From the IMG/VR virus record IMGVR_UViG_3300047476_001269, positions 1 through 61,687 of that record: a DNA stretch of 61,687 nucleotides; one strand, written 5' to 3'. Source of the stretch: a virus. The position numbers and the translations under genes are program-made. Numbering within the stretch: the stretch's first letter is position 1; the number at the start of each line of letters is the position of its first letter. The notes under the pieces are model-generated. The model worked only from the letters and a program-made list of their open reading frames with translations. It ran no database searches and was not told the origin of the DNA. This document shows, piece after piece, positions 1,621 to 34,879 of the stretch.

Positions 1621-4600
1621 CCACAGCTAATATAAAAATAACCAAGGTACTGTTGGGACGAGGTAATACCGCGATAAGTACCAACTATACTGGTGTCATG
1701 GGCGAAGTAACCATGGACACCACGCTGAAAACTCTGCGTGTGCATGACGGTGTGGTAGTGGGCGGGACCAGACTAGCAACCTACAGCGAACTGGCCAATG
1801 TGTCAGTAGGCAACATTGATCTTTCAGGGTATGCAACCACAGCACAGATCACAGCGGCCAATGCCAATGCAGCCGTTCAAGCCGCAGCCATTGCCTCAAT
1901 TAATGCCAATGTTCTAGCTGCTAATGCAGCTATCACAGCACTACAAAGTAATGCTGCTGTGCAGGCAACAATACTAGATACTCTAACCAGCAATGCAGCC
2001 ACACAGGCAATCACACTAAACACACTGACCAGCAATGCTGGTGCGCAGGCAGATTCTTTAACAGCACTGTTGGCCAATGCTGCCACACAACAAAACAGTT
2101 TAACGGATCTGCTGGCCAACGCTGTGACTCAGGCACAACAGATTGCCAATGCTGGCACCAGTTACGGCAATGCCAATGTACAGAGTTATCTGGCTGCGTT
2201 TGACGGTAATATACTACCGAGCGCAAATGTAACTTACAGTCTTGGTGATGCCACACATCAATGGCGGGACTTATGGGTCAGCAACAATACCATCTATATT
2301 GGTAATACTCCTATTAGAGTAGACGGCGGAACACTATTGGTTAACAATGCGCCAATAACCGGTGGATCAACTTATGGTAATGCCAATGTGGCCACATACC
2401 TGACCAGAGGCAATGTCACTGTCGGCAACATAACCATACAAGACGAATATGATCAACAGTGGCGGTTTAGCAATGGTGCATTGATTTGGCCTGCTGGTGA
2501 TGGTACACCCACTGGACCATATATAGAAGGCAGTAGTTTGTTTACAGTATATCCTGAAAATGACGGCGAGTTCAGGATTCAGACTTATTCTACAACCGCT
2601 GTGGGATCTAGGCAGTGGAAATTTAATTCTGAAGGTAATTTAATTGTACCCGACGACGCTACTATCTGGAGCGATCTAGATCTAAGACTGTATGCCGAGA
2701 CAGGCAACATAGCCTTGGGCAATCAGAATGGCACTTGGATGTTCAACGCAGACGGTACTACTAATTTCCCAAATGATAGACTAGAGGTTGCTCAGGGTAA
2801 TACATTTACTATTGGTACAACAACCGCCGGTACCGATGACAACGAAATACAAGTTAATTCTAAAACCATTGATATTATTGCATCAAACATTAATGCTTAC
2901 AGTTGGTCCGAGTTGTTTTTAAACAATATAGATACTTCGGATCCGGTAGCACAAATTCGTGTTAACGCATATGGCGGCACTGAAAAGGTATGGACATTTG
3001 ACGGCACAGGCAACCTAACCTTCCCTACAGGTGCCAATACCAACGGTAGCAGTTACAACGGCGGATCTGCCAATGTGGCGGTGTCGTTAAACTCGACCAA
3101 CAGTAACGGCGATACAGTAAGCATAATAGCACAAGGTGCCAATTCACGAGCTGTGATTGAAACTTATTCCAATGCCGGAAATAATACTTGGCGTTGGATA
3201 TTTGACGAAACGGGCACACTGACCTTGCCTAGCAGTCCGACTTCAATACAGGGAGAGTCAAATCACGATTTTACCATTGGCACCAATAACGGCAATGTTG
3301 CCTATACCTTTACTTTTACTCAGTCGGGTAGCCTCAATGTTCCTGTTGATATTGAAGCGTCAGGTAATGTAGGTACACCAATTGTGACAGGATACGGATC
3401 CGGAAATCTAACAGTCATGGCCAACACACAGTCGTGGTTGTTTGATACCGATGGCATCTTGACCTTACCCAGCAACAGCCAGATTAGATCTGTTGGTAAT
3501 ACTGGAGTAAGACTCAGTGCTGGCGCCAGCGATGTCACTGGCATGTTGTTGAACAACACCGGTGATGCTGAGATCTACGCATTTGGTAATGTGTCTTTAT
3601 ATGCTGATAGCGATAATACATCAATGGGTTGGACATTTGGAATAGACGGTACTCTAACTGCTCCAGGCAATATCACAGCAGGCAATCTGGTACCAGCTGT
3701 TACAAATGATAGCAGTTTGGGCAGTATAGGCCAGGTGTGGAAAAAACTACATCTTGGTACTCAAGGCATTGCTCTTGGCAATGTGTCAATGTCAGAACTT
3801 GGATCTGAGAATCTGTTGCTAAATGTTGGCGAAACAGGCACCACTTCTTGGAAATTTGATACAGACGGAAACATTAAAGGTCCTCAAACTGCCGCGCTGT
3901 ATGGTAGAAATCCTGGTATAGTTTTCAACTATGCAGGCACAGGGCTTGATTTTACCAGCATGCTCACGGAAGGCAGTTTTATTGACCCAAACATAACCAT
4001 CAACACCGGAAATGCAAATACACTAGATCGTTACAAGTGGATTTTTGGCTCCAACGGAAACTTGACTGCTCCGGGCAATATCACAGCAAATTATTTTGTT
4101 GGTGACGGCAGTCAGCTTACCAATGTGACAACAGCTTATGGCAACACTCAAGTGGCCGCGTACCTAGCCAACTACGACGGTATCATCAACTTCACAGCCA
4201 GTCCTGCTACTATAAACACTGGGGAAATCACAGCGGCAAATGTGAGCAGTACCAATGGTTTCTTCTGGGGCAACGGTGTTGCCTACTCAACAGGTGGTGC
4301 TGGTACATATGGCAATACTGAAGTGGCTGCCTACATGTTGACATTCATCAATGCCAACTTTGATACCTTGTTGGCCAACAATTTTACATCTGGTAACGCA
4401 TTTATTTCTGGCGCAGGTGGTATTGGTTATACTCGTGCCAATGCTGTGAGCCGTATTGGCAATGTATACAGTAACTATGGTAACTTCTTGAATCTTACCA
4501 GCGGCAACATCTTCTTGTCGGGGGCAGGTGGTATAGGATACACAGCAGCCAATGCGGTGAGCCGAATTGGTAATGTTTACAGCACCTACGGCAATTTTAC

Positions 4601-17324: not shown

Positions 17325-17400
17325 GCGTCTGTAGCTAAGTGGAACAGCAGAAGCCTCTAAAACTTCAGAAGCGTGGGTTCGATTCCCACCAGACGCACCA
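17325..17400 (+). tRNA. tRNA with anticodon CTA (amber suppressor type)
   Basis: Acceptor GCGTCTG/CAGACGC, D stem closed by GCT/AGC, T arm GTGGG-TTCGATT-CCCAC, discriminator A and encoded CCA are all sound. The anticodon stem is GAAGC/ACTTC with a C31-A39 mismatch around loop CTCTAAA. With T33 fixed, the anticodon is CTA, which reads UAG. An Arg (TCT) reading would need a C at position 33, which tRNAs do not tolerate. The arm looks like that of a tRNA-Arg (GAAGC-CTTCTAA-GCTTC) with one T lost and one A gained. The variable loop has six bases. Confidence 0.75.
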
Positions 17401-17977: not shown

Positions 17978-18001
17978 ATATAATTTTAAGGAGAAACAAA
18001 A

Positions 18002-18697
18002 ATGTCATAGATTGAATTAGGTTGTAAAGATGTAGTATTTCATTTCAACAAAAAGCACTTAGAGGACGCAACAGTCCCTATGTGGATCATTAAAACCGGT
18101 GGCAAGACCTATTATGTCGAGCACGTGGAATGCACAGTTCCATGGAGTACCAAAGAAACCCCAGATAACAGCCATACCAAAGGATCTATCAAGGTCAAGA
18201 ATTGTCTGCTGACCATTGGCGAGGACAATGTGGCACATCTGCGAGAACTTACTGTAGATGACAAGTTTAGACTGCATAACCAGAACCAAGGCATCACACG
18301 AGTGATTGTGAAAGAAGGTACAGATGCATGGGACATGCGCAAGTATCTTAGAGATCTAGAAATTAAGCATGGTCCAATCAAGGGCATTGGTGGCGCATGT
18401 TCTAGCACATTCTATATCACAGATATTCTGGAACCCAGCCATTTCACAGCTCTAGGTTTGGCCATGGCAGGAACCACATTCCGTGAACTCATGCCCAATG
18501 AGCATTATTATCGCATATACGATAGTGGAAAGAATGCACCTGATGAACACTTATGGGAAGAAAACTATGAAGAAGATGACGAAAGCGACGAGGAAGAAAC
18601 AGAAAACTATCTACGGGCTTGCCAGCGTGGGGAAGAAGCACTATCGTTTGGTCAAAAGCTCCTTAAACGAATTAGGGATAAGGTACGGTCGTTTTGA
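18002..18697 (+). CDS. hypothetical protein with in-frame amber codon at position 3
   Basis: An ideal Shine-Dalgarno AAGGAG (17988-17993) stands eight bases before ATG 18002. The frame then reads Met-Ser-TAG (18008-18010) and stays open for 228 more codons to TGA 18697. The next in-frame ATG (18080) has no ribosome site, and the 23 codons between look coding (IELGCKDVVFHFNKKHLEDA). The protein has a mixed alpha/beta body and a strongly acidic stretch at about residues 185-205 before a basic tail (KLLKRIRDKVRSF). I do not recognise the family. Full-length synthesis would need suppression by the CTA tRNA at 17325, or the TAG is a mutation or sequencing change of CAG. Confidence 0.7.
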
Positions 18698-32251: not shown

Positions 32252-33385
32252 ATGAAGATAACCTTTCCACATGTTGAAGACTACCTGGAAGTAATTGCTG
32301 GCAAAAAAGCATTACCGGGTTCGGTTGCTTTGGTCAGTCAATTTTGGAGCGTCTATGCTCCTATCATTAGTCTAGCTAGATACGATAACAATTTTTTGGA
32401 TAATGTTACAGACCAAACCATAAACGGTGGTGCACTTACAGATCGACAGGCCGAACTGGCGGTGAAGTTGATAACCAAGTATCGTAGACAGTTGCATGCA
32501 CATAATGTAGACGTGCCAGACATGACTGTGCCAACGTTTCGGCGTGCTCTTAGAATAGTTGACCGAAGCAAAAGTGCAGGTGTGGTTGATGATAGGATAT
32601 ACTTAAAGTTTCCATATGACTCCAAGACTATTGATGTGATAAGATCCATGAGCAAGCAAAGTCAAGGCAGCATGCTGTTTGACCGCGAAAACAAGATTTG
32701 GAAAATGGCTTTAACCGAATACAATGTAAATTGGGTCTATGAGTATGCCAAGCAAAATGATTTTACCATTGATCAACGTTTGCAGGATCTAATGCAAAAG
32801 ATAATCGTGGCTGAAAATCAAGGATATGAAATTCTCTTGACCAAGCAAGATCATAAACTGCAAATTACCAATGCTCATGAAAATCTAATAAAATATCTAG
32901 AGAAAAAAATTGGACCTTTTGAATCACATAACACAAATCGCTTGATAGACTATGCTAGCATACTAGGATATCAGGTGAGCCAGGATCTTGTGGACCAAGC
33001 AGAAGAGCAATTTGGTGGCAGCACTCTGTTGCTCATGATGAATAGAGAATACGATTTCAACCAAGGCGAAAATATAGAACAGCGTGTGATTGACTATGCA
33101 AGTGTGGTGAATAGATATCCTATTGTGGTTTTTAATCCTACTGCAACACAAAATCAAGAACAATGGACCAAGAAATTTAACGAGTCTGAGGTGCAGTTTA
33201 TAAACAACACAAGCACTGTTGAAATAGATCCTAATGCCAAATTAATATACACTCAAAAAGCACTTAAAAACATGAGCAGTATTCCATTGCTGGTGTCTTA
33301 TGTGGGCATGATGATAGGCACTGAAAAACAGTTAATGAGTGTAGCAGCAGAAAAGATATTTTTCACTGCCAAGAAATTAAAGTAG
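32252..33385 (+). CDS. HARP-domain-like protein upstream of UvsW
   Basis: A 377-residue protein. Residues of about 114-165 (DRIYLKFPYDSKTIDVIRSM ... MLFDRENKIWKMAL) match the HARP substrate-binding pattern found N-terminal to annealing helicases such as SMARCAL1: hydrophobic strand, F-P-Y, then W-D-like turn and K-x-W. The rest is helical and unidentified. It probably helps a helicase to act on forked or annealing DNA. It ends in TAG 33383-33385, and the same frame continues without a stop into the UvsW helicase. Transcription is predicted to be leaderless. Confidence 0.6.
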   Translation: MKITFPHVEDYLEVIAGKKALPGSVALVSQFWSVYAPIISLARYDNNFLDNVTDQTINGGALTDRQAELAVKLITKYRRQLHAHNVDVPDMTVPTFRRALRIVDRSKSAGVVDDRIYLKFPYDSKTIDVIRSMSKQSQGSMLFDRENKIWKMALTEYNVNWVYEYAKQNDFTIDQRLQDLMQKIIVAENQGYEILLTKQDHKLQITNAHENLIKYLEKKIGPFESHNTNRLIDYASILGYQVSQDLVDQAEEQFGGSTLLLMMNREYDFNQGENIEQRVIDYASVVNRYPIVVFNPTATQNQEQWTKKFNESEVQFINNTSTVEIDPNAKLIYTQKALKNMSSIPLLVSYVGMMIGTEKQLMSVAAEKIFFTAKKLK

Positions 33386-33388
33386 TGG

Positions 33389-33418
33389 TTGCACTTGCGA
33401 CTACAGGTGTGTTATAGT
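33389..33418 (+). promoter_or_regulatory. possible promoter of uvsW, leaderless
   Basis: TTGCAC, an 18-base spacer and TATAGT end six bases before ATG 33425. No ribosome site is visible. This is weaker than the other early promoters. Confidence 0.45.
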
Positions 33419-33424
33419 GTCAAC

Positions 33425-34879
33425 ATGTTTGCAAAATTATTAATCAAAGATGAAGTCAACGTAAAGATAGAAGGACTGGAACTTGGTGATAGAAAGGCCC
33501 TGGTAGACAAATACAAATATGAAATACCAGGTGCTAGATATTTGCCCGCGGTGCGATTAGGTCGCTGGGATGGCAAGGTCAGTTATTTTCAACTGGGTGG
33601 CAGTACCTATATTAATCTGCTGCCTGAAGTTCTAGCGTATCTACACAATCGTGGCTACGATATTGATCTAGAAGACACTAGAACCTATCGCACACAGTTT
33701 GACTTTACTCCGGTTAACGAAAACAGCTACAACCATATAGCCTGGCCCAAGGGTCATCCCAAAGCGGGCGAACCCATGGTGCTGCGCGACTATCAGCCTG
33801 AGATCATCAATAGGTTTTTTGAAAACCCACAGAGTGTACAAGAGATTGCTACAGGCGCAGGCAAGACTGTGATCACAGCAGCACTCAGCGATGCAGTTAG
33901 CCAGTATGGACGCAGCATAGTTATAGTTCCTAACAAGAGCTTGGTCACACAAACTGAAGCGGACTATATCAACATGCAGCTGGATGTGGGTGTGTTCTTT
34001 GGCGATAGAAAAGAGTTTGGACGTACACATACCATATGCACTTGGCAGAGCCTGAATGTGCTGCTCAAGAACACCCGGAACCATGAAGCAGATATTACCA
34101 TACAGGAGTTCTTGGAAGGTGTGGTGTGCGTGATCGTGGATGAAGTACACATGGCCAAAGCCGATGCACTCAAGACTCTGCTCACAGGTGTTATGGCAGA
34201 AATTCCCATCCGCTGGGGACTCACAGGAACCATACCCAAAGAAGAATACGAACGCATGGCCTTGAAGTGCAGTATTGGCGAAGTAGTAGGCAATCTCAAG
34301 GCAGCGGAACTGCAAGAAGCCGGGCATCTGGCACAGTGTCATGTAAACATTGTGCAGCTGGTTGATCACGTGGAGTACAACAACTATCAAAGTGAACTAA
34401 AATATTTGTTAGAAACTGATGGACGCCTGGACTATATAAGTAGATTGGTTGAGACTGTGAGAGAAAGTGGTAACACTCTTATACTGGTAGACCGTGTGGC
34501 AGCAGGGCAAGCTCTAGTGTCTAGAATTCAAGATGCTGTGTTTGTGAGTGGCGCAACCAAAGCAAAGGATCGCAAATCAGAATATGATGAAATTGCAACA
34601 AGTGATGACAAGGTTATTGTGGCGACTTACGGTGTGGCCGCTGTGGGTATTAATATCCCTAGGATTTTTAATCTGGTTCTTCTGGAGCCCGGAAAGAGCT
34701 TTGTCCGCGTTATACAAAGCATTGGACGAGGAATCCGTAAGGCAGAGGACAAGGACTTTGTCCAAATCTGGGATATTACCTCCACCTGTAAGTTTGCCAA
34801 AAGACACCTTACCAAGAGAAAGGCTTTCTACAAGGAAGCCAACTACCCGTTTGCGGTAGAGAAAGCAGAGTGGCAATGA
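33425..34879 (+). CDS. uvsW: UvsW-type DNA/RNA helicase (SF2)
   Basis: A 484-residue helicase, close to T4 UvsW (about 500). The N-terminal domain (residues 1-115) includes the family's GRWDGKV segment at 46-52. Motif I is ATGAGKT at 142-148, motif II DEVH at 239-242, motif III LTGT at 266-269, and motif VI is the QSIGRGIRK segment in the last quarter. UvsW unwinds branched DNA and R-loops and drives branch migration, switching T4 from origin- to recombination-dependent replication. The ATG at 33425 is chosen because sequence before it overlaps promoter-like elements. It is the first of eight genes with overlapping start/stop codons. Confidence 0.9.
   Translation: MFAKLLIKDEVNVKIEGLELGDRKALVDKYKYEIPGARYLPAVRLGRWDGKVSYFQLGGSTYINLLPEVLAYLHNRGYDIDLEDTRTYRTQFDFTPVNENSYNHIAWPKGHPKAGEPMVLRDYQPEIINRFFENPQSVQEIATGAGKTVITAALSDAVSQYGRSIVIVPNKSLVTQTEADYINMQLDVGVFFGDRKEFGRTHTICTWQSLNVLLKNTRNHEADITIQEFLEGVVCVIVDEVHMAKADALKTLLTGVMAEIPIRWGLTGTIPKEEYERMALKCSIGEVVGNLKAAELQEAGHLAQCHVNIVQLVDHVEYNNYQSELKYLLETDGRLDYISRLVETVRESGNTLILVDRVAAGQALVSRIQDAVFVSGATKAKDRKSEYDEIATSDDKVIVATYGVAAVGINIPRIFNLVLLEPGKSFVRVIQSIGRGIRKAEDKDFVQIWDITSTCKFAKRHLTKRKAFYKEANYPFAVEKAEWQ

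Follow-up and report, generated by a model that had tools for sequence, protein, structure and literature searches.

A conserved early in-frame stop codon in a phage FHFN/PTH2 operon is matched by a phage-encoded suppressor tRNA

An early in-frame stop codon in a phage operon encoding an FHFN-domain protein and the peptidyl-tRNA hydrolase PTH2 is paired with a phage suppressor tRNA. At the level of sequence, this pairing is conserved, linked by strand and matched codon to anticodon, and selection acts on the frame that read-through would produce. We consider it very probable that the early TAG is a built-in translational lock, so that the FHFN or PTH2 protein would be made only via suppression by the phage tRNA. 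An earlier note on one viral contig had proposed that the suppressor tRNA is needed for expression; this proposal is supported by the conservation of the stop, the presence of CTA tRNAs on the same contigs, a joint switch to TGA and UCA in one phage, and the confinement of the stop to the operon's first gene.

The stretch analyzed (the window), a viral contig of 61.7 kb, contains the following features.

17325-17400, plus strand: suppressor tRNA with anticodon CTA, detected by ARAGORN
17988-17993, plus strand: Shine-Dalgarno sequence AAGGAG, 8 nt 5' of the ATG
18002-18007, plus strand: leader ATG-TCA
18008-18010, plus strand: in-frame amber TAG, the proposed lock; the next base is A
18011-18697, plus strand: gated ORF, 228 codons past the TAG plus TGA
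approx. 18011-18250, plus strand: conserved FHFN domain, the N-terminal ~80 aa of the gated ORF
18080-18082, plus strand: downstream in-frame ATG, within an invariant PMW motif

The tRNA lies 602 nt upstream of the leader ATG on the same strand, in agreement with the roughly 600 bases originally given. Re-reading the sequence also confirmed AAGGAG followed by ATG-TCA-TAG at 18002, the 228 open codons that run from the amber to the TGA at 18695-18697, and the next in-frame ATG at 18080, 23 codons on.

We scanned IMG/VR, keeping the best 80 of 311 relatives; another query yielded 62 loci, the majority not seen in the first scan. An in-frame TAG follows a short leader and stands directly ahead of the conserved domain in 91 of 105 distinct FHFN homologs, a raw count that overstates the evidence, as the lineages are not independent. 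Because the TAG recurs at the same place in these homologs, the one at 18008 is not due to chance. Leader sequence and length differ between homologs (40 of 46 sequence clusters have 2-3 codons, and a few have more), while the position of the TAG beside the domain is fixed. The trivial alternative, a CAG (Gln) codon changed to TAG, is refuted: none of the homologs examined has CAG at the place of the TAG, and conservation of the TAG excludes a sequencing error or C-to-T change as its source. Among the homologs lacking the TAG, some have an ATG where it would stand or one codon past it, and the others are preceded by a gated PTH2 gene.

When gated starts were located by motif, the stop was TAG in 113 of 113. 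It was followed by A in 103 starts, by G in 9, and by T in 1; a purine right after a stop codon favors suppression. The codon after the stop was ATT in 77 starts and AAT, AAC, AAA, ACT, GTA, or TTT in others. We also scanned ~3.8 Mb of sequence on both strands for a Shine-Dalgarno sequence and ATG with TAG in codons 2-5 and then at least 60 open codons. The matches were limited to the FHFN gene, PTH2, and one ORF with a copy of this gated beginning. The same scan with TAA or TGA as the early stop yielded isolated cases only. The copying ORF (contig L035, 3119-3787) carries a NUMOD3 motif of the homing-endonuclease type, begins MA(TAG)IEY, with the stop codon in parentheses, and lies just upstream of the FHFN gene.

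CTA tRNAs missed by ARAGORN were recovered with a covariance model and patterns. Counted among contigs with a gated gene, 85 of the 91 TAG-bearing cases had a CTA tRNA on their own contig; none was found on six TAG-bearing contigs (L024, L088, L089, L094, L107, and L112), all of which are fragments. All 79 CTA tRNAs detected by ARAGORN are on the strand of the gated gene, most of them less than 1 kb away, and in some genomes the distance is 8-100 kb. The first set comprised 51 distinct CTA tRNAs, with compensatory changes in 15 of 19 stem pairs and an invariant TCTAA in the loop. At eight loci (L013, L032, L052, L054, L063, L065, L068, and L078), tmRNA genes lie a few kb from the gated gene.

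ARAGORN labeled the window tRNA as tRNA-Pyl, which reflects the anticodon only. Pyrrolysine tRNA-Pyl (CUA) has a 6-bp anticodon stem and a small D loop, whereas the window tRNA is an ordinary phage-type cloverleaf with an anticodon stem of 4-5 bp; the anticodon is alike in both. The window tRNA has A73 and a C31.A39 mismatch in its anticodon stem. This 31.39 pair is mismatched in 63 of 105 suppressors, most commonly as C.A, compared with 13 of 440 other tRNAs of the same loci (Fisher P = 6e-41, a value inflated by related sequences). A tRNA-Trp with a shortened anticodon stem can promote stop read-through, but the pair lost in that tRNA usually comes from the opposite end of its stem (PMC13092985), and the 31.39 mismatch is therefore only a lead. 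The nearest tRNA relatives of the suppressors are mostly tRNA-Lys (52 of 109), at only about 0.7-0.8 identity.

The operon partner of FHFN in other phages is PTH2, and the TAG-less FHFN homologs point to a rule for the placement of the stop. For the 14 such homologs traced, the start of the upstream PTH2 gene carries TAG in 12 and TGA in 1, and the remaining homolog (L143) is truncated where its contig stops. In the 12 TAG cases, PTH2 lies directly or shortly upstream of the FHFN gene. As a gated PTH2 precedes these TAG-less FHFN genes, the stop goes with whichever gene, PTH2 or FHFN, comes first in the operon. The gated PTH2 proteins begin MT(TAG)INNQKL, MTH(TAG)IDNKL, MK(TAG)VNEKL, MA(TAG)ITEQ, MK(TAG)IDGKHY, MKNM(TAG)IKSNEKL, and, in phage Phosso, MKY(TAG)VEEK. 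Their identity as PTH2 is based on alignment and on PF01981 matches above the curated cut-off (E-values of 1.6e-20 in Atu_ph07, 3e-20 in Phosso, 3e-7 in L131, 2.5e-5 in L124, and 1.8e-5 in XacN1 ORF364). The PTH2 and FHFN genes overlap or abut in the L124 clade, Phosso, and Atu_ph07, so the lock may also act on downstream genes. In one metagenomic contig (L312, ~3950-4000), PTH2 is out of frame with a Shine-Dalgarno-ATG leader that ends CAG-TAG-G, and the only tRNA found is Arg(TCT); this arrangement is either an indel introduced by sequencing or a frameshift variant.

The cultured phages GAP32, CBB, XbC2, ME3, Arash, CM1, XacN1, Phosso, and pT24 also have PTH2 genes gated by an early stop; for several of these genes, the annotated start lies too far into the reading frame. 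Early-TAG PTH2 genes occur in uncultured huge phages as well. PTH2 starts with MAQ(TAG) or MAH(TAG)NEKTWIYVFVRTDL in GAP32, CBB, and XbC2, with MT(TAG)IHENK in ME3, where a CTA tRNA lies about 0.5 kb upstream, and with ML(TAG)NKHW in Salmonella phage Arash. In CM1 and XacN1, PTH2 forms the C-terminus of a longer protein that starts MK(TAG), and in Tenacibaculum phage pT24 it starts MK(TAG) and a tRNA-Sup is annotated. The authors of the XacN1 report found no target for its CUA tRNAs (PMC5852040); judged by its sequence, the gated PTH2 gene ORF364 is one. The cultured Rhizobium phage RHph_I1_18 has a gated FHFN gene that is unannotated, with a CTA tRNA directly 3' of it. The PTH2-like gene of Aeromonas phage avDM6 is unlocked, and a search of its genome found no CTA tRNA. 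A second in-frame TAG, ELDTG(TAG)GDP, is conserved within a gene lying downstream from PTH2 in GAP32, CBB, XbC2, and relatives (loci L292, L293, L295, and relatives); a sense codon occupies this position in Arash. In the mycobacteriophages Phabba and Cane17 (L220 and L221), PTH2 is preceded by (A/G)TG-TAG-GTG and a CTA tRNA lies ~0.5 kb downstream. The GTG right after this TAG is a plausible start, and the spacing favors it.

Of all the arguments for the tRNA reading the stop, the strongest comes from Agrobacterium phage Atu_ph07, in which stop and anticodon have changed together relative to Phosso. Phosso, a relative, combines TAG with a CTA tRNA. PTH2 of Atu_ph07 begins M-I-G-E-H-F-TGA-I-N-Y-E-E, with TGA in place of TAG, and past the TGA the frame continues into a KLRIYSIVRDDLEM segment left out by the start as deposited. 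The whole Atu_ph07 genome, scanned in pieces, contains no CTA tRNA and a single tRNA with a TCA anticodon, at 430713-430787; the UCA suppressor tRNA of this phage was reported by its authors (PMC6102473). The cognate suppressor tRNA is thus encoded in the same genome, and its anticodon switches with the stop.

Could the amber be bypassed by another start? One reading is that the protein begins at the ATG at 18080, with the upstream part untranslated or decayed and the TAG a mutation or sequencing error. We regard the probability of this as close to nil, for beyond the existence of that ATG, the evidence runs the other way. The TAG is kept across dozens of assemblies and in cultured genomes, and among 38 homologs pN/pS is 0.137 across the 23 codons that lead up to the next Met compared with 0.231 in codons 25-70, at equal pS. 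The suggestion that these 23 codons look coding is thereby borne out, with purifying selection stronger there than in the following codons, and the early stop lies within a conserved, selected frame. Of 46 sequence clusters, 32 have a Shine-Dalgarno core ahead of the leader ATG; for the next in-frame start, only 4 of 42 have one. Translation starting at 18080 was rejected on this selection and ribosome-site evidence, and the ATG there is probably not the start. A leader mini-ORF, ATG-NNN-TAG, acting as an attenuator, with ribosomes reinitiating on the codon that follows the stop, is improbable. It would draw on the ATT that follows the stop in so many gated starts, since ATT may serve as a rare start codon, and two-codon mini-ORFs are known regulators. 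However, the other post-stop codons form no start series, and their variety argues against a start codon at that position. Nor would a mini-ORF need to share its frame with the conserved ORF, or its TAG to match a CUA tRNA and its TGA a UCA tRNA.

Two further readings concern how the stop is read. If TAG were a sense codon throughout the phage (code 15), the amber would merely be one such codon, and the presence of a phage CUA suppressor tRNA in the window (17325-17400) agrees with this. Against it, the long genes of the window have no in-frame TAG and stay open without read-through, and TAG closes 5 of the 60 window ORFs of at least 100 aa (TAA closes 36 and TGA 19), which together indicate the standard code. 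Neither in-frame TAG across many genes nor the absence of TAG as a terminator was found. An early in-frame TAG ahead of a long ORF is moreover confined to the FHFN/PTH2 operon. Stop usage in the window rules out genome-wide TAG recoding, and we consider code 15 highly improbable. A second candidate for read-through, two same-frame ORFs split by a TAG at 32252-34879 of the window, was rejected; relatives carry TAA in that stretch too, so it probably holds two adjacent genes. The stop may instead act as a sensor of stress or termination that is read mainly via RF1 shortage or near-cognate misreading, with the tRNA setting the sensitivity only. Peptidyl-tRNA drop-off and its clean-up by PTH are concentrated in early elongation, in the first codons (PMC10192219), PTH2 is itself a gated gene, and several loci have tmRNA genes nearby. 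We nevertheless regard such a sensor as unlikely, as it does not by itself explain the joint switch to TGA and UCA.

In the preferred reading, that of a lock opened by the phage tRNA, ribosomes would initiate at the strong site at 18002 and encounter UAG at codon 3, where RF1 would release them unless the phage CUA tRNA encoded 0.6 kb upstream decodes the codon. Such decoding would yield the FHFN-domain protein. The operon would stay closed until the phage provides a stop-reading tRNA of its own, which is presumably charged and active, and the switch may turn on only after synthesis of that tRNA. The same module, a stop in the operon's first gene (PTH2, else FHFN) with a suppressor tRNA of matching anticodon in the same genome, is general in large phages. 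The gated products may act in tRNA or peptidyl-tRNA metabolism, and the gate may tie the operon to phage tRNA or release-factor status. The early-elongation drop-off described above (PMC10192219) and the neighboring tmRNA genes make a feedback or sensing role plausible. We tentatively suggest, with less than even confidence, a two-part module of a suppressor tRNA with a specialized anticodon arm and a stop-locked peptidyl-tRNA operon, in which decoding at codon 3 would report on the tRNA, release-factor, or peptidyl-tRNA pool and feed back on PTH2 and FHFN.

This arrangement resembles known systems in part. Phages with a recoded stop (TAG=Gln in code 15; crAss-like phages, Lak, and others) likewise have a phage CUA tRNA that reads UAG in a standard-code host, and regulation of lytic genes has been proposed for them. 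TAG is scattered through many genes in those phages, whereas here the code is standard and one conserved stop lies in the first codons of one operon. The prfB gene (RF2) also has an early in-frame stop, a UGA, that gates a gene of the translation machinery. It relies on a programmed frameshift, in contrast to the zero-frame suppression by a dedicated tRNA proposed here, and the gated gene here is PTH2 or FHFN. CUA or UCA suppressor tRNAs, the same kind of tRNA gene, have been reported in XacN1 (PMC5852040), RsoM2USA (PMC8504454), and Atu_ph07 (PMC6102473), with no specific target named; in XacN1 and Atu_ph07, the gated PTH2 gene would be that target. Our search of the open-access literature found recoded phages and orphan suppressor tRNAs and no stop-locked operon, and earlier mention elsewhere is possible. 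The stop-codon lock thus looks like an undescribed way of gene control. The orphan suppressor tRNAs of standard-code jumbo phages, so far without known purpose, would gain a specific conserved target and, if the reading is true, a stop codon and its matching tRNA would form a natural gene-control system. As the module occurs in cultured phages of common bacteria, it is directly testable. There is also a systematic annotation error, in that gated genes, among them PTH2, lose their first residues in annotation because the in-frame stop comes after their real start.

The gated window protein had no match in Pfam, PHROG, or NCBIfam, and a search of bacterial genomes confirmed no FHFN protein. Its AlphaFold2 model (pLDDT 84) and a model of the N-domain of FHFN homologs (pLDDT 92) had no PDB match below an E-value of 0.001. 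The C-terminal part is predicted to form a mixed alpha/beta domain and a long helix. Profile comparison of the window protein with PTH2 (PF01981) revealed no relation and did not support the idea that this part is a hidden PTH2. In three other contigs (L083, L084, and L011), a small helical protein or N-terminal extension of the EEYLAYRAEWKK type lies between PTH2 and FHFN or is fused to FHFN, and is possibly a third operon partner.
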